The translations under genes and the position numbers were made by a program. From Archangium sp. (lineage in GTDB: Bacteria; Myxococcota; Myxococcia; Myxococcales; Myxococcaceae): a DNA stretch of 64,000 nt. How positions within the stretch are numbered: the first letter of the stretch is position 1; each line of letters begins with the position of its first letter. The notes below the pieces were generated by a model, which ran no database searches, was not told the origin of the DNA, and was given only the letters and a program-made list of their open reading frames with translations. The stretch is taken from assembly GCA_030695565.1 (NCBI GenBank), contig JAUYRZ010000038.1, positions 1-64,000 on the forward strand, in the 5' to 3' direction. Positions 50,971 to 64,000 of this stretch are shown piece by piece.

Positions 50971-50998
50971 GTCTCCCTCTCCCTTCGGGGTGAGGGTC
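50971..50998. repeat. Copy of the intergenic CCCTCTCCC repeat
   Basis: GTCTCCCTCTCCCTTCGGGG then TGAGGGTC: left arm CCCTCTCCC with a diverged right arm. It fills almost the whole gap between the convergent gene ends at 50966 and 50997. Confidence 0.6.
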
Positions 50999-51656
50999 AA
51001 ACCTGGCGCAGCGCCGTAATCGCCTTGCCCAAATCCTCCGGCAAAGGCGCTTCCACCACGACACCAAGAGTCTCGATCACCAGCGACGCTGCATGAAGCG
51101 GCGTGCGGTCGAGCCTGAAGTCGCCAAGCGGAAGCGGCTCCTTCCGCCCGTACTGGTGATCGAACAACAACGGATGCCCGCTCGCCTTCAAGTGCACGCG
51201 AATCTGATGCTGCCTGCCGGTGAGCGGTTCACACTCCACCAGGGTCGCGGTCTTGAAGGTCTCGATCGGCTTCACCAGGGTGCGCGAGTCCTTCCCTGCT
51301 TCACCGGGGAACGCGAGGCGCATCTTGCCTTTGCGCCCTTCGATGAGCGGCTGCTGCAGATCGAGCGGCGCTGAGACCACGCCTTCGACCAGCGCGAGGT
51401 ACTTCTTCTTCGCGAGGCCCTGCTCGAAGGCCATCGACGCCGAACGATGTGCGTCTTCATCGGTGGCGAAGAGCACCACCCCCGACGTGTCGCGATCGAT
51501 GCGATGGCAGACCCAGACGCGTTGGCCCAACTGCGCGCTGAGGAGATCTCGAGCGCAGACCTGATCTTCCGGAGTGCGCCCTGGGATCACCAACAACCCG
51601 GGCGGCTTGGCCACCGCGACCAAACCACCCTTCGTGAACAGCACCTCGAGCGTCAC
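50997..51656 (-). CDS. RluA-family pseudouridine synthase
   Basis: 219 residues from GTG 51656, abutting the preceding stop. The catalytic motif HRIDRDTSGVVLFA holds the Asp nucleophile near residue 58. EPLTGRQHQIRVHLKASGHP is the second family motif. No S4 domain is present, so it matches the short RluA/RluC-like class that modifies rRNA or tRNA. Substrate position unknown. Confidence 0.9.
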   Translation of the reverse strand: MTLEVLFTKGGLVAVAKPPGLLVIPGRTPEDQVCARDLLSAQLGQRVWVCHRIDRDTSGVVLFATDEDAHRSASMAFEQGLAKKKYLALVEGVVSAPLDLQQPLIEGRKGKMRLAFPGEAGKDSRTLVKPIETFKTATLVECEPLTGRQHQIRVHLKASGHPLLFDHQYGRKEPLPLGDFRLDRTPLHAASLVIETLGVVVEAPLPEDLGKAITALRQV

Positions 51657-53012
51657 CTACTCGAGCTCGCTCGGCTTCAAGACCGTGACCGGCCCGTACT
51701 GCTCGACCTTGGAGCGCAGCGCCTCGGCGTTGCCCACCAGCACGATGTTCCGCTCGCCGCCGAAGAGGTGTTTGCCGGCCGCTTCGGTCGCCTGCTTCAC
51801 GGTGACTGCCGCGATGCGCTCGCGGTACTCGGAGATCCACTCATCGGTCAGCCCGTAGTGCACCACGTCGGCGATCGCACCGGAGACCGCTTCGTTGGTC
51901 TCCAGCCGCGCGGGATACAGCCCCGAGATGTAGCGCTGCACGGTGGCGAGCTCTTCCTTCTTCGGCCCGCGCTCCTTCATCTTCTTCACCTCGGCCAGCG
52001 ACACGTCGATGAGCTGGTTGATGCTCTCGGTGCGCGTGAAGGACGAGACCGTGAAGGTGCCCGCGACGCTCATCATGTCGAACGAGCTGCCCGCTCCGTA
52101 GGAGAGGCCGCGCTTCACGCGGATCTCGGTGACCAGGCGCGAAGTGAAGCCGCCGCCCAGCACGGTGTTCATGGTGACGAGCGGAAAGTGATCCGGGTGA
52201 CCGCGGCGCACGCCGTGACCACCGATGCGCATCTGCACCTGGGTCTGCTCGGGCTTGTCGACGATCAACACCTCGCCGGGCCGGGCGAGCCCTTCCCACG
52301 AAGGCACGATGGGACCTTCCGTGGGGCCACCCTTCCAGCCCCCCAGGGTGCGCTCGACGGTCTTCATCACCTCGTCGAGATCGAACGCGCCCACGATGTA
52401 CAGGTGCGCGATCGACGGCCCCAGGCGCTCACGGTGGAACTTCTTGAGATCATCGCGAGTCATCGCGGTGATGTCCTTCTTCCCTCCGATGGTCTCGTGC
52501 GCGTACGGGTGGGTGCCCCAGGTCGCGCGAACGAGCGCGCGATCGGCGAGCGAGCCGGGGTCGTCGAGATCGTTGGTCAACCCGGCCAGCGTACGGCGGC
52601 GGGCCAGCTCGAGCTCGTTCTCGGGAAAGTCGGGCTCGAGCAGCACCTTCGCCATGAGCTCGAACATCGGCTCGAAGTGTTTGGAAGGCGTGGAGAGCGA
52701 CATGATCACGTTCTCTTCGTTGGCGAAGCCGCCCACGCTCGCGCCTACGAAGTCGACGGTGTCGCTGATCTGATCGGCCGACATGCCGGCCGCGCCACGG
52801 CGAAACAACCGCGCCGCGAAGTCACCCACGCCGAGGCGATCGAGCGGATCGAACGCGCTGCCCGCGCGCATGACCAACCGCACCGCCACCAGAGGGAGCG
52901 GCCCCCGCGGCACGAGGTGCACGGTCATGCCATTGGGCAGCTTGCGGACCTGGTGATCCGGCAGCTTCAGCGGGCGAAGCTTCGGCACTTCATCGACCTT
53001 CTTCTTCTTCAC
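51657..53012 (-). CDS. M16 family peptidase homologue lacking the zinc motif
   Basis: 451 residues. It has the M16 fold markers (VRLVMRAGSAFDPLDRLGVG ... VDFVGASVGGFANEENVIMS). Where active members have HxxEH it reads G-V-G-D-F-A-A-R-L, so the metal site is missing. The second domain with VLGGGFTSRLVTEIRVKRG is intact. Such chains pair with an active M16 subunit (as in processing peptidases). The start overlaps the active partner's stop (ATGA at 53009-53012). Confidence 0.9.
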   Translation of the reverse strand: MKKKKVDEVPKLRPLKLPDHQVRKLPNGMTVHLVPRGPLPLVAVRLVMRAGSAFDPLDRLGVGDFAARLFRRGAAGMSADQISDTVDFVGASVGGFANEENVIMSLSTPSKHFEPMFELMAKVLLEPDFPENELELARRRTLAGLTNDLDDPGSLADRALVRATWGTHPYAHETIGGKKDITAMTRDDLKKFHRERLGPSIAHLYIVGAFDLDEVMKTVERTLGGWKGGPTEGPIVPSWEGLARPGEVLIVDKPEQTQVQMRIGGHGVRRGHPDHFPLVTMNTVLGGGFTSRLVTEIRVKRGLSYGAGSSFDMMSVAGTFTVSSFTRTESINQLIDVSLAEVKKMKERGPKKEELATVQRYISGLYPARLETNEAVSGAIADVVHYGLTDEWISEYRERIAAVTVKQATEAAGKHLFGGERNIVLVGNAEALRSKVEQYGPVTVLKPSELE

Positions 53013-54325
53013 GAGGCCACCTCGGAGAGGGGCACGAGCGTGACGACTGATCTCCGCTCTGGGGCGAGGTACTTCGCGGCCGCGGCGCGCACCTGCTCGC
53101 CGGTGATGGTCTCGTACTGGATGGGCAACGCGAGGCCATGGCGCCAGTCGCCCAGCATCAGCTCGTAGGTCCCCAGCGCGTGGGCACGGCCGTTGTTGGT
53201 GGCGAGTTCACGGAGCAAATGCGCAGCAAGGTTGTTCTTCGCCTTCTCCAGCTCACGCGGTTCGAGACCGTGCTGCGCCACCTTGGCCAACTCGGCGTAC
53301 AGCGCAGCTTCGGCCTTCTTCGGATCGCCGTCAGGCTTGAGCTCGAGCACGACCGTGAACGAGCCGGGATCGAAGCGCCAGGTCCAGTCGACGGAGACGC
53401 CGACGGCGAGCTCCTGATCGAACACCAGCGAGCGGGTCAGCCGGCTCGATTGACCGACCGAGAGCGCGTACTGCAACACGTCGAGCACCAGGGTGTCGGG
53501 ATCGGTGCCGTTGGGCCCACGCCAGGCGATCATCAGTGAAGGCGCCTGCGCGGGGTGACGCACTTCAGCGCGGCGTTCACCCTTCTGCTCGGGCTCAGCG
53601 TCGTGCACGAGCGGGAGCGCGGGGCCGGGCTTGATGCCCTTGTAGTACTTCTTGATCAGCGCCATCGCCTGCTTGGGGTCGAAGTCGCCCGAGACGTAGA
53701 GCGTGGCGTTGTTGGGCGCGTAGTAGGTGCGGAAGTACTCGAGGCAGTCCTCGCGCTTGATGTTCTCGATGTCCTTCATCCAACCGATGACCGGCCAGCG
53801 GTACGGGTGGGCCTTCCAGATGAGCGACGAGAGCTCTTCGTCCATCAGGCCGCCGATCTCGTTGTCCACGCGAAGGCGGCGCTCTTCCATCACCACCTGC
53901 CGCTCGCTCTCCAGCATCTTCGGGGTGACCTGCAGGGAGCGCATGCGATCGCTCTCGAGATCGATCACCTTCTCGAGCGCCTCCGACATGAAGTCTTCGT
54001 AATAAACGGTGACGTCGTTGCTGGTGTACGCGTTGGAGCTGCCGCCGTTCGACTCGAGCACGCGATCGAACTGGCCCGGGCCGTACTTCTTCGCGCCGTT
54101 GAACATCATGTGCTCGAAGAGGTGGCTGATGCCGGTGATGCCGGGGCGCTCGTTGCGCGCTCCGACCCGGAAGAACGTGTAGTAGCTGCAGGTCGGTACG
54201 GCGTCAGACGGGAGCAGGCGCACCTGCATGCCGTTGGGCAGCGTCGCCTCGATGACGGAATTGGCGATGGCCTTGAGTGCGGGAGGGAGGGTCGGGGTGG
54301 TCTTCTTCGATCGAGTGGTCCGCAT
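53009..54325 (-). CDS. Active-type M16 zinc peptidase
   Basis: 438 residues with the inverted zinc motif HLFEHMMF near residue 66 and the typical continuation GPGQFDRVLESNGGSSNAYT. The third ligand Glu is probably in the RRLRVDNEIGG segment. No signal peptide is seen. Together with the inactive subunit it resembles the two-chain YmxG/PqqL-like proteases. It is the upstream gene of the pair. Confidence 0.92.
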   Translation of the reverse strand: MRTTRSKKTTPTLPPALKAIANSVIEATLPNGMQVRLLPSDAVPTCSYYTFFRVGARNERPGITGISHLFEHMMFNGAKKYGPGQFDRVLESNGGSSNAYTSNDVTVYYEDFMSEALEKVIDLESDRMRSLQVTPKMLESERQVVMEERRLRVDNEIGGLMDEELSSLIWKAHPYRWPVIGWMKDIENIKREDCLEYFRTYYAPNNATLYVSGDFDPKQAMALIKKYYKGIKPGPALPLVHDAEPEQKGERRAEVRHPAQAPSLMIAWRGPNGTDPDTLVLDVLQYALSVGQSSRLTRSLVFDQELAVGVSVDWTWRFDPGSFTVVLELKPDGDPKKAEAALYAELAKVAQHGLEPRELEKAKNNLAAHLLRELATNNGRAHALGTYELMLGDWRHGLALPIQYETITGEQVRAAAAKYLAPERRSVVTLVPLSEVAS

Positions 54326-54581: not shown

Positions 54582-55742
54582 TCAGCGCGCAGCGGGAATG
54601 GACGGCAACACTTCAGGCGGACCGGACGGAAGCGGTGCCACGGGCGTCGCCTTGTCGAAGAACATGAGCACCTTCGGCCAGAGTTCGGTCGAGGCGCGCT
54701 CTCCGATGACCATGTCCATGTGGCCGTACTCACCGCGTGAACCGTTGGCGCGGGTCATCAGCAGCCACTCCTTCGGTCCGCCAAGCGCGCGGTAGCCGTC
54801 CTTCACCGCAGGCGCCACGGCGATGCGATCGAGCCGGCCTGCGACCACCAGCACCGGCGTGGTGATCTTCGCCATGTCGGCTCGCAGATCGATCTTCCCG
54901 TCGAACGTTTGGAACTGGCCGGTATCCATCAACGAGATCAGCTGCAGCGCGGTGCCGCCTGAAACCGGCGCGGTGCCGTAGACCATCAGCCTTCGCCAGG
55001 TCTCCGTCTCGGTGCTCTGCGGGTTGTAGAAGAAGCGCTGAAACGGGCCATCTTCCATCGCGCCCTGAAACGGCGATGCGAGCAACGCACCGACGCCGCT
55101 GGGGATCATCGATTCGGGACTGACGAAGACCGGGCCGAGCGTCTTGAGCAAACTCTCCATGCCGGTGCCCCAGTCGAGCCTCGTCGGGCTGCCCATCGTG
55201 GCGGCGGCGTGCACGCCCTGCCCTCCTTGCGAGAGGTACGCGTAGAGCACCATGCCGCCCATCGAGTGGCCGGCGTAGTCGATCGCCGAGGCGCCGCTGG
55301 TTCGCTTCACGTAGTCGATGACTGCCGGCAGATCGTGGCGCCAGTAGTCGTCGAAGAAGATCGGCCCGGGGCGTTTGTGGTCGGCGTCGATGGTGTCACT
55401 CGTTCCCGTGCCGCGGAGCGAGACAGTCCAGGCTTCACGTCCTTGCGAGGCGATCCAGCGGGCCATCGAGTGTTGCTCGTCGAGGTCCATGTTCCGCTCG
55501 TTCGCGGAGATGCCGTGGCAGAGGACCACCGGGAAGCCTTTGGTCTCGCCCACTGCTTTGTAGCGGGTCAGCGAGACTTCCCAGCCGTCGTCGGTTTTGG
55601 CGCGATGGAGCTCGGCTTCTTTCGGAAGCGGGATCGGCCGGAGCGCGGCGCAGCTCGTCATGAGGAGGCAAAGCAGGAAAGCCCTCTCCCCGACCCTCTC
55701 CCCCGCGGGGGAGAGGGAGACAGTTTGATCAGTTCCCCTCAT
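54582..55742 (-). CDS. Alpha/beta hydrolase (lipase-like), intact nucleophile
   Basis: 386 residues from ATG 55742, which overlaps the TGA of the upstream hydrolase. The first 17 or so codons read through the intergenic palindrome (SLSPAGERVGERA), so a later start, for example GTG 55694, is possible. A lipoprotein-like signal follows (AFLLCLLMTSC). The core shows oxyanion-region VVLCHGISANERNMD, nucleophile elbow AGHSMGG (Ser), and a likely acid/His end (GRLDRIAV, GEYGHMDMV). The substrate is unknown, perhaps lipid or ester. Confidence 0.82.
   Translation of the reverse strand: MRGTDQTVSLSPAGERVGERAFLLCLLMTSCAALRPIPLPKEAELHRAKTDDGWEVSLTRYKAVGETKGFPVVLCHGISANERNMDLDEQHSMARWIASQGREAWTVSLRGTGTSDTIDADHKRPGPIFFDDYWRHDLPAVIDYVKRTSGASAIDYAGHSMGGMVLYAYLSQGGQGVHAAATMGSPTRLDWGTGMESLLKTLGPVFVSPESMIPSGVGALLASPFQGAMEDGPFQRFFYNPQSTETETWRRLMVYGTAPVSGGTALQLISLMDTGQFQTFDGKIDLRADMAKITTPVLVVAGRLDRIAVAPAVKDGYRALGGPKEWLLMTRANGSRGEYGHMDMVIGERASTELWPKVLMFFDKATPVAPLPSGPPEVLPSIPAAR
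55694..55717. repeat. Perfect 24-base palindrome of the intergenic repeat family
   Basis: The arms CCCTCTCCCCC and GGGGGAGAGGG meet around a central GC, giving a perfect 24-base palindrome, preceded by GCCCTCTCCCCGA. It lies inside the annotated 5' end of the hydrolase gene, which argues for a start downstream or within it. Confidence 0.75.
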
Positions 55743-56677
55743 GGCGTCGCTGCCAGGAAACGTTCGATCGAGGGGTAGACGAACGCCGGCGCACGCCGCC
55801 CCAGGAGCAGCGATGCATGCGCGAAGTCGTCGCCTTCCACCACGCGGCTGAACATCTGAATCTGCACCTTGCCTTTCGTCATGCCCCGCAGCGGAACGCA
55901 GCTCTCCGACGGAGTGAAGCCGTCCGCGAGGCCCAGGAGCAAGAGGGTGGGTCGATCTGATTCCTTGAGCCGCGAAACCACTGAGGTCCCGTCATCCAGC
56001 GGCAGGTCTCCGGTCTCCATCCACGCCAGCAGTTCACTCGAAACACCCGATGACAGATCCCGCGTCGACCCCGCCAACCCTCGCATCACCGAAGGCTCGA
56101 TCTCCGCCCCCAGCGCGAACAGCTGCTCGAACATGCCGAAGCCCTCTGGCGACGAAGCGAGCGAGGTGAAGCGCCCCCCGGTGCTCAAGAACGCGCGCGC
56201 CAGCTCGGTCGGCTCTTCCTGAACCACCGGAGTGCTCAACGCCACCACTCGTCTTACCTGCAGTTCACGCGTGCTCGCCGCGATGGCCAGCGTGCCCATG
56301 AACCCCTGCGCGACGAGATCGATCGGCCCGGATCGTTCTGCAGCGATGGCCTTCGCGATCGCCGGCAGGTCGAGATGAACGACCGTGCGCAGTGAGTGCC
56401 CCGCATCTGAAGCGCCCTGCCCTCGCAGCTCGGCCACGTAGACGAGCCGCCCTCGCGCCGCCAACCACCGCGCCAGCCCCCCCCCTTTGAAGTCGAACAA
56501 CGGCCGTCCGAAGCCCACGTCAGCCAACAGCAAGACGGGAGGCAATGCGCTCGCACGCCCCAGCGGAAGAAACCGGTGCAGCGCCAACGAAGCGCCGTCT
56601 TCGGTGATCACCTTGCGATGGGAGACCTTCAGCTCTGCCGGCGTCGCGAGCAGGAGCAGCGAGAGCACCAGGCTCAA
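55739..56677 (-). CDS. Alpha/beta hydrolase-fold protein lacking the Ser nucleophile
   Basis: 312 residues from TTG 56677 (TTGA overlap with the response regulator stop); GTG 56668 is an alternative. A signal-like start (SLVLSLLLLATPAEL) is followed by the hydrolase fold: LPPVLLLADVGFGRPLFD and VYVAELRGQGASDA align with the family. At the nucleophile elbow, where the neighbour has GHSMGG, it reads A-Q-G-F-M-G, so the Ser is replaced by Gly. The final His lies in GDDFAHASLLLG. It is probably a non-catalytic paralogue of the downstream enzyme. Confidence 0.78.
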   Translation of the reverse strand: MSLVLSLLLLATPAELKVSHRKVITEDGASLALHRFLPLGRASALPPVLLLADVGFGRPLFDFKGGGLARWLAARGRLVYVAELRGQGASDAGHSLRTVVHLDLPAIAKAIAAERSGPIDLVAQGFMGTLAIAASTRELQVRRVVALSTPVVQEEPTELARAFLSTGGRFTSLASSPEGFGMFEQLFALGAEIEPSVMRGLAGSTRDLSSGVSSELLAWMETGDLPLDDGTSVVSRLKESDRPTLLLLGLADGFTPSESCVPLRGMTKGKVQIQMFSRVVEGDDFAHASLLLGRRAPAFVYPSIERFLAATP

Positions 56678-57336
56678 AGCTCGACGATCCCTGCCTTGAG
56701 CGCCATCACCACCGCGTCGACGTGGGAGTTGACGCCCATCTTCCGGTAGATGTGGCTCAAGTGCGTGCGCACGGTGCGGCGCTCGAGCTCCATCACCCGG
56801 CCCACTTCTGCGTTCGACAACCCCTTCGCGACGAACTTGAGCACGTCGAACTCGAGCGGGCTGAGGCCCCAGGTGTTCTCCGGCTGCGCCTTCTTCGCCT
56901 GCACCGACTGGAAATAGTTCCAGAAGCGCTTGGCGATGATCGCCTCGAGCACCGTGCCGCCGGCCATCACGTCGTGAATGCCCGAACGAATCTTGTCGGG
57001 CCCCACTCGCTTGACCAGATACCCCGAGGCGCCGGCCTGAATCGCCTCGTACACCTTCTGCTCATCGTCGAACGAGGTGAGGATCAGCACCTCCACGCCA
57101 GGCGCCCGCCGCTTGAGCCGCTTGGTGACCTCGATGCCATCGATGCCCGGCAGCTCGAGGTCGAGCAAGACCAGATCAGGGAGCAGCTTCACCATCTGCT
57201 CCACGCCGTCTTCGCCTTCTTGCGAAGTGCCCACCACCTCGAGCTCGGGAAACAGCGCGAGCACCTTGAGCAGGTTCTTGAGCAGCTGCGGCTGATCCTC
57301 GACCACGAAGATGCGCGTCTTCTCGAGCGTGCTCAT
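56674..57336 (-). CDS. NarL/LuxR-type response regulator
   Basis: 220 residues, ATG 57336 overlapping the kinase-like gene stop (ATGA). The receiver domain spans about residues 7-125 with VVEDQP, the phospho-acceptor Asp in LVLLDLELPG, T in LILTSFDD and K in YLVKRVG. The C-terminal LuxR HTH is GLSPLEFDVLKFVAKGLSNA, then EVGRVMELERRTVRTHLSHIYRKMGV. It should bind DNA when phosphorylated. No histidine kinase is adjacent; the neighbour is a Ser/Thr-kinase-like protein instead. Confidence 0.92.
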   Translation of the reverse strand: MSTLEKTRIFVVEDQPQLLKNLLKVLALFPELEVVGTSQEGEDGVEQMVKLLPDLVLLDLELPGIDGIEVTKRLKRRAPGVEVLILTSFDDEQKVYEAIQAGASGYLVKRVGPDKIRSGIHDVMAGGTVLEAIIAKRFWNYFQSVQAKKAQPENTWGLSPLEFDVLKFVAKGLSNAEVGRVMELERRTVRTHLSHIYRKMGVNSHVDAVVMALKAGIVEL

Positions 57337-59291
57337 CGTGAACGGAATACCGGTGTGATTTTCACGAGCTTGCCCGCCTCGATCCGAATGTTCGATACGT
57401 CTTCCTGCTTCGATTTCACGTCGGTCACCTTCAGCTTGTGGGATCCCGCCGCGACAGGAACCTTCGTCGCGTTGACGCAGACCCGCTTGCCATCGATCTC
57501 CACCCGCACCGAGGTCATCGCGCCGATGGTGAGGTAGCCCACCTTGCCTTTGGGCGTCGTGTCGTAACAGTCGGGGCTCGTCTTCACGATCGGCGGGGGC
57601 GCTGGTTTCTCCACCACCGGCGGCGTCACCTTCTTCGGTGTGGGCGTGACGCCCGTCTTCGGATCCGGATCGGGATCGAACGCCTTCTCCGGGTGCAGCT
57701 TGTCGAAGTCGGCGAGCTTGAGCGGCTTGCCCACCGGGGGCAGCGGCTTGTTGTCGGGTGCGACCTCCCGCTCGATGGCGTCGGGCAGGTAGCTCAGCAA
57801 CGCGCCTTTGGGATCGTTCTGCGACTTGAACCACGCGTAGGCCGTGCCGGTGACGGTGCCCATCAACGCGAGCGCGCCGAACAGGCTGAGCACGCGCACG
57901 GTGCGTTGGCCCTTCTGGCGCTGCGCCTCGAGGCCGATGCTGCGATCGACGTGCACCCGCCCGGGAACGGCGAAGGTCATCAGCGTCTTGGCGACCTTCT
58001 CGCGCGGGGCGGGTTTGGGCGCGGGCTTCTCTGCACCGGGGAGCTCGGCGAAGTCTTCCTGCACGCGCACGCGGCCCTTGAGCGGATCGACGACGGGCTG
58101 CTGCGGCGTCGGCCCCGCCTGCCCCGCGGTCACCGCCATCACACCCGGCGGCGCGTCCCACTCGGAGACGGCGCGCTTCGCCACCGCCATCACATCGGGC
58201 TGGGTCTTCACCTCGAGCTCGCGCGAGAGCGGCTGGGGCTCCGCCACCGGGGGCAGCTCACCGGTGAACACCGGCAAACCATCGCTGGTCGGCGTGCGAT
58301 CGTCGACGCGCCCACGCGAGAACGAGGGCCGCTCCTCCACCTCGATGGGGTCGGCTTCGACGCCGCCGATGCCGGCGATGTCGGTCAGATCGAAGGCGCG
58401 TTCGATCGGCACCGGGCCCTCCGCCGACAGCTGCACCTCGTTGGGGAAGAGCTCACCCACGAACTTCTTCAGATCGTCCCGGCCCGGCATGCCGCCGCTG
58501 GCCGAGAGAAATTCACGGATGCCCTCGGCGAACTCCGCGCACGAGCGGTGACGGCGGTTCGGCGCGTTCTCCAGCGCCCGCATGATGATGGGGTCGATGC
58601 GCGAGTGAAGCCGCCGCACCAATCGTGAAGGCGGAGGCAACCGATCGGATCGGGTGCTGACGTTCGCGTTGCCGGTGCTCGCTTCGTGCAGGGTGAGCAG
58701 CTCGTAGGTGATCGCCCCCAGCGCGTAGAGGTCGCCCGCGATGGTGGCCGGATCGCCGCCGCCCTGCTCCGGAGCCCGGTAGCTGTCTCGGCCACGCGCG
58801 CCGAAGCTCTTCTTGAGCACGGGCGCGGCCTGAAGCGCGGTGAGCGCACCGAAGTCGGCGACGCAGACGCTGCCATCGACGCCCAGCAGAATGTTCCCGG
58901 GCGTCAGCGCGCTGTGCACCACGCCCGCTTCGTGGGCGGCACCGACCGCCTCCAGCAACTCGACGGCCAGCGCGAGGGCGACCGCGGGCGGCAACATCAC
59001 CTCGCGGGTGTTGAGCCGCTGCAGCGCGAGACCCAGGGTGTACTTCCCGGTGTCCTGCCGAACGATCGCCAGGTGCCCGTCGATCATCCCCACGTCGAGC
59101 ACGCGGGCCACCCCACCGTGCGTCACCGACTGCAGCTGCCGCGCGATGTCGGCGACCACCTTCGCGTACGCCGCGTCGGAGGTCTTCAAGTGGAACAGCT
59201 TGAGCACCACGGGCTCGTTGGCCTCGACGCGTTCGCCGCGGAACAAGTCCGCCAGCTGGCTCTGCTCGAGTCGCCCGGTCAGCCGATACAC
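57333..59291 (-). CDS. Ser/Thr protein kinase-like protein, probable pseudokinase, with PEGA-like tail
   Basis: 652 residues. Residues 1-270 have a kinase fold: the ATP-site Lys K31 (VVLKLF) and DFG 146-148 (ADFGAL) are present. However the catalytic loop reads HSALTPGN (126-133) instead of HRDxKPxN, so the Asp is lost, and no GxGxxG loop is visible at the N-terminus. A linker of about 190 residues leads to a membrane segment (VLSLFGALALMGTVTGTAYA, about residue 465), then a Pro/Lys-rich stretch and a PEGA-like domain (VRVEIDGKRVCVNATKVPVA). It likely senses envelope or regulatory input without classical catalysis. Confidence 0.85.
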   Translation of the reverse strand: MYRLTGRLEQSQLADLFRGERVEANEPVVLKLFHLKTSDAAYAKVVADIARQLQSVTHGGVARVLDVGMIDGHLAIVRQDTGKYTLGLALQRLNTREVMLPPAVALALAVELLEAVGAAHEAGVVHSALTPGNILLGVDGSVCVADFGALTALQAAPVLKKSFGARGRDSYRAPEQGGGDPATIAGDLYALGAITYELLTLHEASTGNANVSTRSDRLPPPSRLVRRLHSRIDPIIMRALENAPNRRHRSCAEFAEGIREFLSASGGMPGRDDLKKFVGELFPNEVQLSAEGPVPIERAFDLTDIAGIGGVEADPIEVEERPSFSRGRVDDRTPTSDGLPVFTGELPPVAEPQPLSRELEVKTQPDVMAVAKRAVSEWDAPPGVMAVTAGQAGPTPQQPVVDPLKGRVRVQEDFAELPGAEKPAPKPAPREKVAKTLMTFAVPGRVHVDRSIGLEAQRQKGQRTVRVLSLFGALALMGTVTGTAYAWFKSQNDPKGALLSYLPDAIEREVAPDNKPLPPVGKPLKLADFDKLHPEKAFDPDPDPKTGVTPTPKKVTPPVVEKPAPPPIVKTSPDCYDTTPKGKVGYLTIGAMTSVRVEIDGKRVCVNATKVPVAAGSHKLKVTDVKSKQEDVSNIRIEAGKLVKITPVFRSR

Positions 59292-59312: not shown

Positions 59313-62300
59313 TCACTGCACCGTGAGCGTGTAGCTGCTCAAGGTGCCGTAATAGGAATCGGTCGAGACGGAGAAGAGGTACGTGCCCGTGGTCGTGGGC
59401 ACGTAGGGGCTGGCGTAGCCGCCGTAGAGATTGGTCACGTAGCTGCCGTTCGGCCCGGTGACCTGCGCTCTCGTGCCCGAGCTCACCTGCATCTGCACTC
59501 CGACGCCCTGAGTGAGCACCACGCTGAACACATCGGTGTCGCCCACGTAGTCGATCGACCCGGTGCGCGGAGTACCGAGGGTGAACGGCGTGGTTGACGT
59601 GAAGTCGTCGCTGCCCCGGGTGGCGGCCAGGGTGTAGGCGCCGGTGTTGCCGCTCGAGTAGGCGTTGCTGCGCACCGTCACCAGGTACGAGCCTGCACTC
59701 GCTGCGAGGAAGCCGGTCCGTGAGGTGACCGCCGAAGAGGTCGACGCGATGGTGCTGCCCGAAGGCGAGGTGATCGCCATCACGCACGCTGCGCCCGAGG
59801 TCACCACGCAGTCGAGGCCGATGATGTCGCGCCCGCGGTGATGGTGAAAGCGTCGGTGTCGGTGCCCGTCTCGATCACCCCCGCAGTGGCGGCTGCGCCG
59901 AGCGAGAGTGCGGTGGCGTCAGATCTCGCGTCACCGTGATCATCGGTACCGAGGTCCGTCACCATCACCTGGTAGCGGAAGACGTCGGAGCTGTAGCTGG
60001 AGGAGATCTGAAGGTTCACCACGGTGGCGCCTGCAGGCGGCTTGAAGGCGATGCCCGACGACGAGTAGCTGCTGGAGATGGTGGTGCCCGTGGTGGTCTG
60101 CACCGTCACGCTGCACGAGCTGCTGCCCGTGCAGGCCACCAGGTGGTGATGCCCGGCCACCACCGGCACGGAGAAAAAGTCGACATCGCCCTGATACTGC
60201 AGCTCGCCCCCCGTCGATGTGCCCAGGGTGAGGGCCGTCGCGCCCGTGGCGGTGTTGGAGTGATCATCGACGCCGCGGTCGGTGACCGTCAGGGAGTACG
60301 GCGAGTTCGACGAGTAGCTCGAGATCAGCACGAAATAGCTGCCGCTGGTCGTCGCGCGGAACGAGACCACGGCGTTGTAGTTGGAGGAAGCCACCAGGTT
60401 GTTGCTGGAGTCGCGCACCTCCACCCGCGTGTTGCCGGCCGGCGTGAGGGTGGCCGCGTAGATGTTGCCGGCGACCGCGGCGAACGAGAACGCGTCGATG
60501 TCGTTGGCGAAGGCCAGGTTTCCCGTCATCGCCGTGCCCACCGTGATCGGGGTCGCATTGCTGATGGTGCCTCCGTGATCCTCGAGGCCCAGGTCGAGCA
60601 CCGTCAACGAGTAGAGCCCCAGCTGGGTCGAGTAGGAGTAGCCGCTGTTCACCTCGACCACGAAGCGTTGCCCGGTGATCGCCAGGAAGGTGGGCACGGT
60701 GCTGTTGCTGTTGGCGACCACCTGCCCCACCGCGTCTTTCACCGTGACGTTGCAGGTGCCCGAGCTGCGCGCGCAGTTGACCTGGTAGACATGATTGGCG
60801 AGGCCGGTGAAGGCAAACGCGTCGATGTCGGCGGCGTACTGCACGTTGCCGGAGACCGGCGTGCCGGGGGTGAGCGCCGTGGCCCCGATGGAGGTGCCCG
60901 CGTGATCGTCGACGCCCTGATCGGTGACGGTGAGCGTGTAGCCCACCAGATCGGTCGCATAGGAATAGCCGCCCCGCTCGACCTGCACCTTGTAGAGCCC
61001 GGTCGCGGCGATCTGCATTCCTACGGTGCTGTCGCCTTCTGCCATCACCACGCCCTGCGCGTTGATCACCGAGAGGTGGATGACCTGGTTTGCCTGCGTG
61101 CCTGCCGTCGGCGCCGCGGTGACCTGGATGATCCGGCCCACCGCGCCGGTGAACGAGAAGGTGTCGACGTCATCCAGGAGCTCGAGCCGTCCACCCACGG
61201 GCACGCCCGCGGTCAGGGGGGTGGCGTTGTTCAGCGTGTTGCTGTGATCGTCGAGGCCCAGATCTTCGACCGCCACGGAGTACATGGGCAGCGAGCTGGA
61301 GTACCCGTTCTGCAGGCGTACGGCCGCGGGCAGCGCCTGCGTGGCCTGCCAGACGAGGCCGGTGATCGAGTAGCCGTTCGAGGTCAACACCTGGCCACCC
61401 GGCAACACCACGGAGACCACCGGGTTGAAGTTCGTACCCACCCAGCGCGCCCGGTAGATGCGATCAGGCAGCTGGGCCACGCTGAAACAGTCGATGTCTT
61501 GCTGGCGCTCGAAGCGGCCGGGCACCGGCAGGTTGTTCGAGGCGATGGGCGTACCGAAGGCCGCTTCATCGGAGTGATCGTCGACGCCCAGATCGTCGAA
61601 CGACAGGCTGAAGTCACCCTGGCTGCGCGGGTTGCGCGCCCGCGCCGTCACCGTGAGCAGCTCGAGGCCCGGCGTGGTGATGCTGGTGATCTCGCCCGGG
61701 TTGAGCCGGCGCACGCCCCCATCGGGGCGGGCCACCTCGATCTGCAGATCGGCGCCCGCGTCGGCCACCGCGAAACGAATGGCCGTGCTGGAAGGCATCT
61801 CGAGGCGAATCACGTCGAGGTCGCCCGCGTACTGCAGGCTGCCCGCGAAGGGGTTCGCGCCCGGCACCAGCGTGATCGCATCGGCTTCGGTGTTCGCGTA
61901 GTCGTCGACGCCCAGCGTGCGATAGCGCACGAAGTAGCCGCCGGTCTCCGACGCGCGCACACCACGCACGCGCACCATCACGTTCTGGTTCAAGGGCGCC
62001 ACGAAGGTCACCTCGGCCGACGCGCTGCCCCGGTTGTCCGAGGCCAACAGCGTCACGCCCCTCGAGTCGAAGACGTCGATCAACAAGGGCAAGGACGTCG
62101 AGTTGGCCGAGATCGAGAACAGGTGGCCCGGCGTCACGCCGAGCTCGAACCAGTCGTGATCGCCCGCGGGAAAGATCGTTCGCTGCTCCTCCACGTCGAT
62201 GTTCAGGCCCTTGGCGAAGGTCGGGCACTCGTCGGCCTCGGCGGCGTCACCGTCGACGTGTTGCGTGGCGCAGGTCCACACCGGGGAGGCAGAACACCCA

Positions 62301-62725
62301 TCACCTTCGGGCGCGAAGCCGGGATCGCAGCGGCAGCTCGAGACGCCGCCGGAGACTTCGCAGGTGGTGCGATGCGCGTTCTGGCAGGGGTTGGGCAGAC
62401 AGGCGGTGCGCAGCACGCACGAGCCGTTCACTTCCACCCGGGTCGCTGGGCACACGCAGCTCACCTGGCCCGAGTTCACCTGGCACAACGAGTTGGTGAG
62501 GTTGGCGCACGGATTCGAGGCGCACAGATCGGTGGGGGCGATCGCGGTGCAGAGCAAGCCCACGCTCACGGAGCCCTGATTGCACAGACAGGCTGCGGTC
62601 TCTCCCACCACCGCGCAACGGCCCTCACCGCAGCTGACACCCTCGCAGGGGTCAGGCTTCTGCACGGGCTCACAGCCCAGCAACGACAACCCCAACACGA
62701 CCACCACCACCCCTTGTCGAACCAT
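59313..62725 (-). pseudogene. PPC-repeat giant lipoprotein interrupted by a frameshift
   Basis: From ATG 62725 (signal MVRQGVVVVVLGLSLLGC) the frame has three EGF-like Cys segments (CEGVSCGEGRCAVVGETAAC; CASNPCANLTNSLC; CLPNPCQNAHRTTCEVSGG). At least seven tandem pre-peptidase C-terminal-type beta domains follow, each starting near [LV]-G-[LV]-[DE]-D-H and containing D-V/I-D-x-F-S-F. It stops at 59801. The remaining repeats continue in another frame from about 59825 to 59313 (DCVVTSGAACVMAI, then DYVGDTDVFSVVL). One missing G in the run GCGGGCGCGACATC (about 59830) would restore the frame. The intact product would be about 1137 residues. Confidence 0.8.
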
Positions 62726-62770
62726 GGCGCGCAGCGTTCCAGCACCGCGGTCAGCGCGCAATCCCCGAGA

Positions 62771-63043
62771 TCAACGAAGGCGACGAGGCTTCAGCGGCGC
62801 GACCACGTCGAACGAAAAGCCGCAGTACAGACAGGTGCGCTCCCGCTGGCCTTTGGGCACTTCTCCAAAGCAGCTCGGGCACCTCGGCCGTTGGGGTGCT
62901 TTGGGGTCAGGGTCTGGCTTCACGCGGGCCGCCAGCGCGACCTTCTTGAGCTTCTGCTCGAGCCATCGGACCCGGGCCTCCAACTCGGTGACGCGAACCC
63001 TCAGCTCACGCCCCTCGTCGTCGTTGCTGCGACGCGCCGCCAT
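62771..63043 (-). CDS. Coiled-coil plus C-terminal zinc-ribbon protein
   Basis: 90 residues. The N-terminal half is a heptad helix (LRVRVTELEARVRWLEQKLK), then a Pro/Asp hinge and a CxxC-CxxC zinc ribbon (CPSCFGEV ... CLYCGFSFDVV) with a basic end (KPRRLR). It probably binds zinc and perhaps nucleic acid or protein; no specific family is recognised. It is divergent from the 5'-nucleotidase gene, 43 bases away. Confidence 0.65.
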   Translation of the reverse strand: MAARRSNDDEGRELRVRVTELEARVRWLEQKLKKVALAARVKPDPDPKAPQRPRCPSCFGEVPKGQRERTCLYCGFSFDVVAPLKPRRLR

Positions 63044-63086
63044 CGTGGGTAGAAATGTGTCACGCGCAGTCAGCGAAAGGAAAAAC

Positions 63087-64000
63087 TTGGACTCGATTCA
63101 CGGCAGCTTCCGCACCACCTTCGACCGCCAACCCGCCGAAGCCGCCGAGCTGCGCGCGAAGGAACTGCTGAGCGACGAAGAGCTTCAGCGCATCTTGCAG
63201 CAGGGCCCGCGCAACGACACGCCGGTGCCGCGCCAGGTCTTCGTCAACCGCAACCTGCACATGGCCAAGGTCGACCTGATCGGCTTCGACATGGACTACA
63301 CGCTGGCGATCTACCACCTGCGCAGGCTCGAACAGCTCTCGTACGATCTGACCGTCGACCGGCTGATCGCCAACTGCGGCTACCCCGAAGACATCCGCCA
63401 GGTGCCCTACGATCACAGCTTCGTGCTGCGCGGCGTGTTCGTCGACAAGGTGCGCGGCAACCTGCTCAAGATCGATCGGTTCGGGTACGTCGGCCGCGCG
63501 TATCACGGGCGCCGCTTGCTGGCCGACGAAGAGATCCAGCGCCTCTACCGCAACGAACGCATTCGCATGAAGAGCACCGACTACGCGTGGATCGACACGC
63601 TCTTCGCGTTGCCCGAAGCGTGCCTGCTGGCCGGCATCATCGAGCTCTACGAGACCAAACTCGGCAAGCCGCTCGACTACCGCAAGCTGTACGACGACAT
63701 CCGCGAAGCGATCGACACGGTGCACCGCGACAACTCGCTCAAGAAGATCATCCGCGCCGACATCGGCAAGTACATCTTCAAAGACGAAGAACTCGGGCCT
63801 GCGCTCCACAAGCTGCGCTCGGGCGGCAAGAAGCTGTTCGTGCTCACCAACTCGTTGTGGGACTACACCAACGCGGTGATGTCGTACCTGCTCGACGGCG
63901 TGCTCCCCGAGTACCCGAGCTGGAAGAACTACTTCGACTTCATCGTCACCGGTGGCGCGAAGCCCGGCTTCTTCAGCGAGCAGAAGCCGTTCCTCTCCAT
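63087..64000 (+). CDS. HAD-IG family 5'-nucleotidase, 3' end beyond the window
   Basis: It starts at TTG 63087 with AAAGGA 5 bases upstream. At least 304 residues are visible and it runs off the right edge. The HAD motif I is GFDMDYTLAIY (catalytic DxD) near residue 66, and motif II is VLTNSLWDY near residue 253. The layout matches purine 5'-nucleotidases of the HAD-IG group (cytosolic cN-II-like). It dephosphorylates IMP or GMP in characterised relatives; the substrate here is inferred. Confidence 0.87.
   Translation, partial: MDSIHGSFRTTFDRQPAEAAELRAKELLSDEELQRILQQGPRNDTPVPRQVFVNRNLHMAKVDLIGFDMDYTLAIYHLRRLEQLSYDLTVDRLIANCGYPEDIRQVPYDHSFVLRGVFVDKVRGNLLKIDRFGYVGRAYHGRRLLADEEIQRLYRNERIRMKSTDYAWIDTLFALPEACLLAGIIELYETKLGKPLDYRKLYDDIREAIDTVHRDNSLKKIIRADIGKYIFKDEELGPALHKLRSGGKKLFVLTNSLWDYTNAVMSYLLDGVLPEYPSWKNYFDFIVTGGAKPGFFSEQKPFLS

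Follow-up and report, generated by a model that had tools for sequence, protein, structure and literature searches.

A predicted Hanks-type pseudokinase encoded beside a NarL-type response regulator across Myxococcota, joined in some lineages by two alpha/beta hydrolases

Gene content of the locus

The stretch of DNA analysed here (the window; 64,000 nucleotides) carries four consecutive genes, for a kinase-like membrane protein (PK), a response regulator (RR) and two alpha/beta hydrolases (H1 and H2), which are listed in Table 1 together with their neighbours. The four genes and three 4-base overlaps given in a preliminary description of this DNA are all present on the minus strand, the overlaps being ATGA at 57333-57336 (PK/RR), TTGA at 56674-56677 (RR/H1) and ATGA at 55739-55742 (H1/H2). 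In close relatives, short overlaps are kept at most of these junctions. Two loci from the window's genus (L035 and L038) bear insertions of about 460-470 bases between RR and H1, and thus these two genes need not be tightly coupled.

Table 1. Features of the locus, with positions in the window
Feature	Positions	Strand	Description and basis
ZR	62771-63043	minus	90-aa coiled coil and zinc ribbon (CPSC...CLYC); conserved first gene
PK	57333-59291	minus	membrane pseudokinase, 652 aa; Pfam Pkinase 7e-16
PK, kinase-fold domain, residues 1-282	58446-59291	minus	predicted model and Foldseek
PK, degenerate catalytic loop HSALTPGN (for HRDLKPEN), H126-N133	58893-58916	minus	sequence alignment
PK, membrane-spanning helix, residues 454-490	57822-57932	minus	model and hydropathy of orthologs
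PK, PEGA-like beta domain, residues 584-645, predicted periplasmic	57357-57542	minus	model, PEGA match, orthologs
RR	56674-57336	minus	NarL/FixJ-type response regulator, 220 aa; Pfam Response_reg and GerE
H1	55739-56677	minus	alpha/beta hydrolase fold, Ser replaced by Gly125, probably exported
H2	54582-55742	minus	alpha/beta hydrolase, predicted lipoprotein; Pfam Abhydrolase_1
REP-like palindrome	55682-55717		part of the H2 N-terminus, within the first 20 codons
M16a	53009-54325	minus	peptidase M16, HLFEH zinc site; conserved neighbour
M16b	51657-53012	minus	M16-fold partner without HxxEH; conserved neighbour
Pseudouridine synthase, RluA-type	50997-51656	minus	conserved neighbour

The conserved gene order runs from a divergent nucleotidase gene through ZR, PK, RR, H1 and H2 (where these two occur), M16a and M16b to the pseudouridine synthase gene, and the surrounding block (nucleotidase, M16 pair and pseudouridine synthase) is itself syntenic across the family. 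ZR, which was missed in the preliminary description, directly precedes PK in 33 related loci and is also present in the window, where an inserted gene for a PPC-repeat lipoprotein stands between the two. Its four zinc-ribbon Cys residues are nearly invariant, and no Pfam family matched it above the cut-off.

The inserted PPC-repeat gene (59313-62761, minus strand) is split into two frames, with a frameshift near 59800-59860; in genome G004 (L034:4765-8214) it is a single open frame of 1149 codons. The frameshift may be either a real inactivation or a sequencing error. An open reading frame at 63060-63809 was rejected as a gene, being antisense to the plus-strand gene for a HAD-IG 5'-nucleotidase. 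In the region upstream of the gene string, we looked for a conserved site at which a regulator might bind; this gave short conserved blocks in the Myxococcus group and established no dyad. These blocks, CATAACACGC and TGGCACGCT, lie in the divergent promoter region upstream of ZR in the Myxococcus/Corallococcus group (L084, L086, L088 and others), and a promoter or regulator site is a possible identity for them.

PK has lost the catalytic aspartate

In the predicted model of PK, residues 1-282 form a kinase fold and residues 454-490 a helix; the Pro-rich linker between them is disordered (pLDDT below 50, where the model is uninformative), and a beta domain lies at the C-terminus. The best Foldseek match of the kinase domain was 6b2p, a protein kinase of M. 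tuberculosis (4.9e-11). Hydropathy of the helix falls under the threshold in this species and over it in nearly all orthologs, in which the membrane helix is clear and the C-terminus is PEGA-like. PEGA itself (PF08308) was matched in 1 of 10 orthologs (0.0017), and both the motif and the beta model fit this domain.

A kinase-like membrane protein devoid of its catalytic Asp had been proposed before, and the proposal is borne out by the HSALTPGN loop and, even more broadly, by the orthologs: the HRD Asp is present in none of the 39 readable non-redundant PK sequences, with Ala, Gly or Ser in its place in 37 of them. The usual form of the loop is HG(A/G/S). The Lys at +2 is gone as well. As the essential catalytic residue has been lost in common with its orthologs, PK is, judged from its sequence, a true Hanks-type pseudokinase. 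It might nevertheless be supposed that PK is active by an unusual mechanism, such as nucleotidyl transfer of another kind or a non-canonical base, with Ser/Thr of RR as its target. The pseudokinase-like SelO fold performs AMP transfer, and the VAIK-type Lys31, Asn133 and the DFG Asp, all present in the PK of the window, are retained in most of the PK family. We consider such activity very improbable, however, since PK lacks both the HRD Asp and the +2 Lys, the Gly-rich loop does not conform to GxGxxG (its first Gly position is occupied by an invariant Glu9, as aligned by eye) and in most distant families the DFG Asp is missing too.

The PK of locus L045 (genome G006) is highly diverged, with 28% identity, HGRLEPRLV in the loop and the DFG Asp lost; RR is 79% identical there. 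A role in anti-phage defence was considered as well; the PADLOC matches reflect the generic kinase domain only.

H1 has Gly in place of the nucleophile and H2 keeps its triad

In H1, the Ser of the nucleophile elbow is replaced by Gly125 (LVAQGFMG), with Asp252 and His287 kept, and in Pfam it gave a weak match to Hydrolase_4, under the cut-off. In H2, the elbow reads GHSMGG, and the triad S160, D305 and H341 is complete. The earlier picture of two hydrolases, one without its Ser and the other apparently active, thus agrees with the residues found. The same holds for the relatives: Gly occupies the nucleophile position in every sequence scored as H1, with the Asp and His kept wherever readable, and Ser is present in those scored as H2, apart from one aberrant extra sequence (L114), which has Ala. 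Distant H1-like matches in L047-L052 were rejected as H1 orthologs, since they keep the Ser, are closer to H2 and are located elsewhere.

The model of H1 (pLDDT 91) has a lipase-like alpha/beta hydrolase fold, and its best fold matches are lipases and esterases (1k8q, Z 30.2; sequence identity about 15-17%). It thus resembles closely the folds of acid/gastric lipase and monoglyceride lipase, and differs from them in having no Ser. H2 is a predicted lipoprotein by its lipobox Cys, C31, which is invariant in 13 orthologs, and we infer lipase or esterase activity for it from fold and motif. H1 is probably exported, and H2 would be too, judging by eye and by hydropathy.

A quite improbable alternative is that H1 is alive, its Asp-His pair driving a nucleophile-free reaction, with H1 and H2 being two enzymes of one pathway. 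Nucleophile-independent enzymes with the alpha/beta-hydrolase fold do exist, and the invariance of Asp252 and His287 in the face of the Ser-to-Gly change would fit this idea. On the other hand, no residue of the conserved elbow motif takes over from the Ser, and the best fold matches are the lipases and esterases mentioned above, though chemistry is not decided by fold.

With dN/dS of 0.13-0.21 for H1 and 0.18-0.19 for PK, both dead proteins are under purifying selection; by this measure they are not decaying genes, for which such values would look different. The M16 pair echoes the dead/active theme, with HLFEH in M16a and none in M16b, and there are therefore three pseudoenzymes at this locus.

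The REP-like palindrome of H2 is an insertion found in genome G003 (L035) too and absent from G004 (L034). This distribution points to a mobile repeat that has come to serve as coding sequence.

RR keeps its phosphorylation site and has no adjoining histidine kinase

Residues E13, D14, D59 and T87 of RR were found in all 86 readable sequences and K109 in 88 of 88, and RR is thus built to be phosphorylated. The preliminary description had RR standing without a histidine kinase, and indeed no histidine kinase gene lies next to it: the sole HATPase_c match on the contig (45427-45771, plus strand) is about 11 kb away on the opposite strand. It was considered whether RR might be FruA. This is unlikely, since RR keeps the full phosphorylation site and FruA is known for its atypical receiver.

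In the nearest RR paralog of the same genome (on C40), a HisKA_3 histidine kinase fills the slot matching that of PK. Five HisKA_3 kinases are encoded in this genome, four of which adjoin NarL-type regulators. The fifth (C55:4365), a receiver-kinase fusion adjoining a hybrid kinase, is a candidate, and only that, for an unlinked cognate kinase of RR. The pair formed by PK and RR thus resembles NarL/FixJ two-component systems with HisKA_3 in the layout of the regulator, the complete phosphorylation site and the membrane sensor-like protein directly before it; the difference is that the sensor slot is occupied here by a dead Hanks-type kinase.

The PK-RR pair is widespread and the hydrolases are lineage-restricted

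The synteny search proposed in the preliminary description found all four families together in related genomes. PK, RR, H1 and H2 occur jointly in 20 genomes, the window counted and one of them from another family, with PK truncated by a contig end or strongly diverged in a few; chance and assembly error are thereby excluded. An RR profile matched 91 of 96 genomes from the family, as well as much of the phylum, with paralogs among the matches below about 1e-75. Among the 67 distinct RR orthologs having enough upstream sequence, PK lies immediately upstream in 62. The other five have no PK there, so RR can work without it.

Most genomes with PK-RR have no hydrolases. The pair occurs without them in Myxococcus, Corallococcus, Archangium, Hyalangium and deeper families, and at the PK-RR loci of these four genera H1-H2 was not found. 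Two other families of the order carry both hydrolases, as do basal members of the family. In a third other family (L102), a similar hydrolase pair follows RR in the order RR-H1-H2-M16, and PK is not detectable there. The idea that the four genes form one obligate system, with PK regulating an envelope lipase, is not supported as it stands: PK-RR lives without the hydrolases, and at L102 RR, H1, H2 and M16 stand without a detectable PK. Mapped on the RR tree, hydrolase presence requires at least seven changes, at least four of them forced by well-supported branches, with some of the absences being contig ends. It is simpler to assume that the crown group lost the hydrolases, although the RR tree alone is no proof of loss over gain.

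The best explanation, as far as sequences can tell, is that the core of the locus would be an old signalling pair, PK and RR, with the hydrolases as a lineage-restricted addition. Because PK almost always stands directly before the same RR, a dead kinase is suggested to do what a histidine kinase usually does; on the other hand, this adjacency may reflect shared expression only. The main rival takes the latter thought further: the whole block would be a conserved housekeeping neighbourhood, in which the tasks of PK-RR and of the hydrolases are separate and only a transcript is shared. It is in line with the synteny of the block across the family and with the hydrolases coming and going while PK-RR stays undisturbed. 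We think it rather unlikely, as the adjacency of PK and RR outlives the block: at L085, L087 and L090 and in distant families (L096-L101 and L159) the pair is kept without M16, and at some of these loci the nucleotidase is gone too. Close H1 orthologs, moreover, occur only beside RR (23 of 23 among those whose contig permits the test).

A possible mechanism

If PK and RR do form a signalling pair, the PEGA-like periplasmic end of PK could serve as an envelope sensor, and the kinase fold in the cytoplasm could bind either RR or an unlinked histidine kinase that phosphorylates RR, changing the activity of its partner allosterically. The phosphate on RR would come from that unlinked kinase, and ZR might serve as an adaptor. 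H2 would be an esterase or lipase anchored in the outer membrane, and the exported H1 might be its non-catalytic binding or chaperone partner, comparable to the inactive M16b beside the active M16a; RR may control the expression of both. As a whole, the scheme, in which PK senses the envelope and allosterically controls RR or the unlinked kinase of RR, and in which H1 and H2 are exported and act as partners, is one that we hold tentatively, as possible and somewhat short of probable. We are more doubtful about the general statement that across Myxococcota the place of the sensor next to a NarL regulator has been taken, and kept, by a Hanks-type pseudokinase, which controls the regulator without phosphotransfer of its own and, in some lineages, governs a dead/active envelope lipase pair as well.

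To our knowledge, Hanks-type pseudokinases are common in myxobacteria, and few of them have an established role. In M. xanthus, 11 of the 99 Hanks-type Ser/Thr kinases are reported as pseudokinases (PMC6791715). PK shares with the myxobacterial Hanks-type kinases the kinase fold, the Pro-rich linker, the single transmembrane helix and the C-terminal periplasmic domain; it differs from them in that every readable ortholog lacks the catalytic Asp and in being tied to one RR phylum-wide. Dead kinase-like proteins that tune response-regulator signalling have been described, namely a pseudokinase of Caulobacter by which signalling pathways are coupled (PMC5361649) and ChrS, a pseudokinase of Corynebacterium (PMC9491836). 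This is where the likeness lies, and both have histidine-kinase folds, whereas PK is of the Hanks type. A non-catalytic role at the envelope is also attributed to EcpK, a tyrosine pseudokinase of M. xanthus for which a scaffold function has been proposed (PMC12004946); unlike PK, it has a BY-kinase fold, a polysaccharide co-polymerase as its partner and no regulator. Our literature search, covering few subscription papers, turned up no description of a response regulator that has a Hanks-type pseudokinase as its partner.

PK is a Hanks-type pseudokinase tied to one specific transcription factor across the phylum, the genetically tractable M. xanthus included. PK-RR is present there without the hydrolases, which makes this organism suited to a clean study of the pair. 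The Ser-to-Gly H1 beside an active-looking H2 makes a second, separate pair of pseudoenzyme and enzyme, and a strongly conserved one. A Myxococcus-type locus was also found in a record named Comamonas sp. KCTC 72670 (L148; BNCN01000013), which is probably mislabelled.
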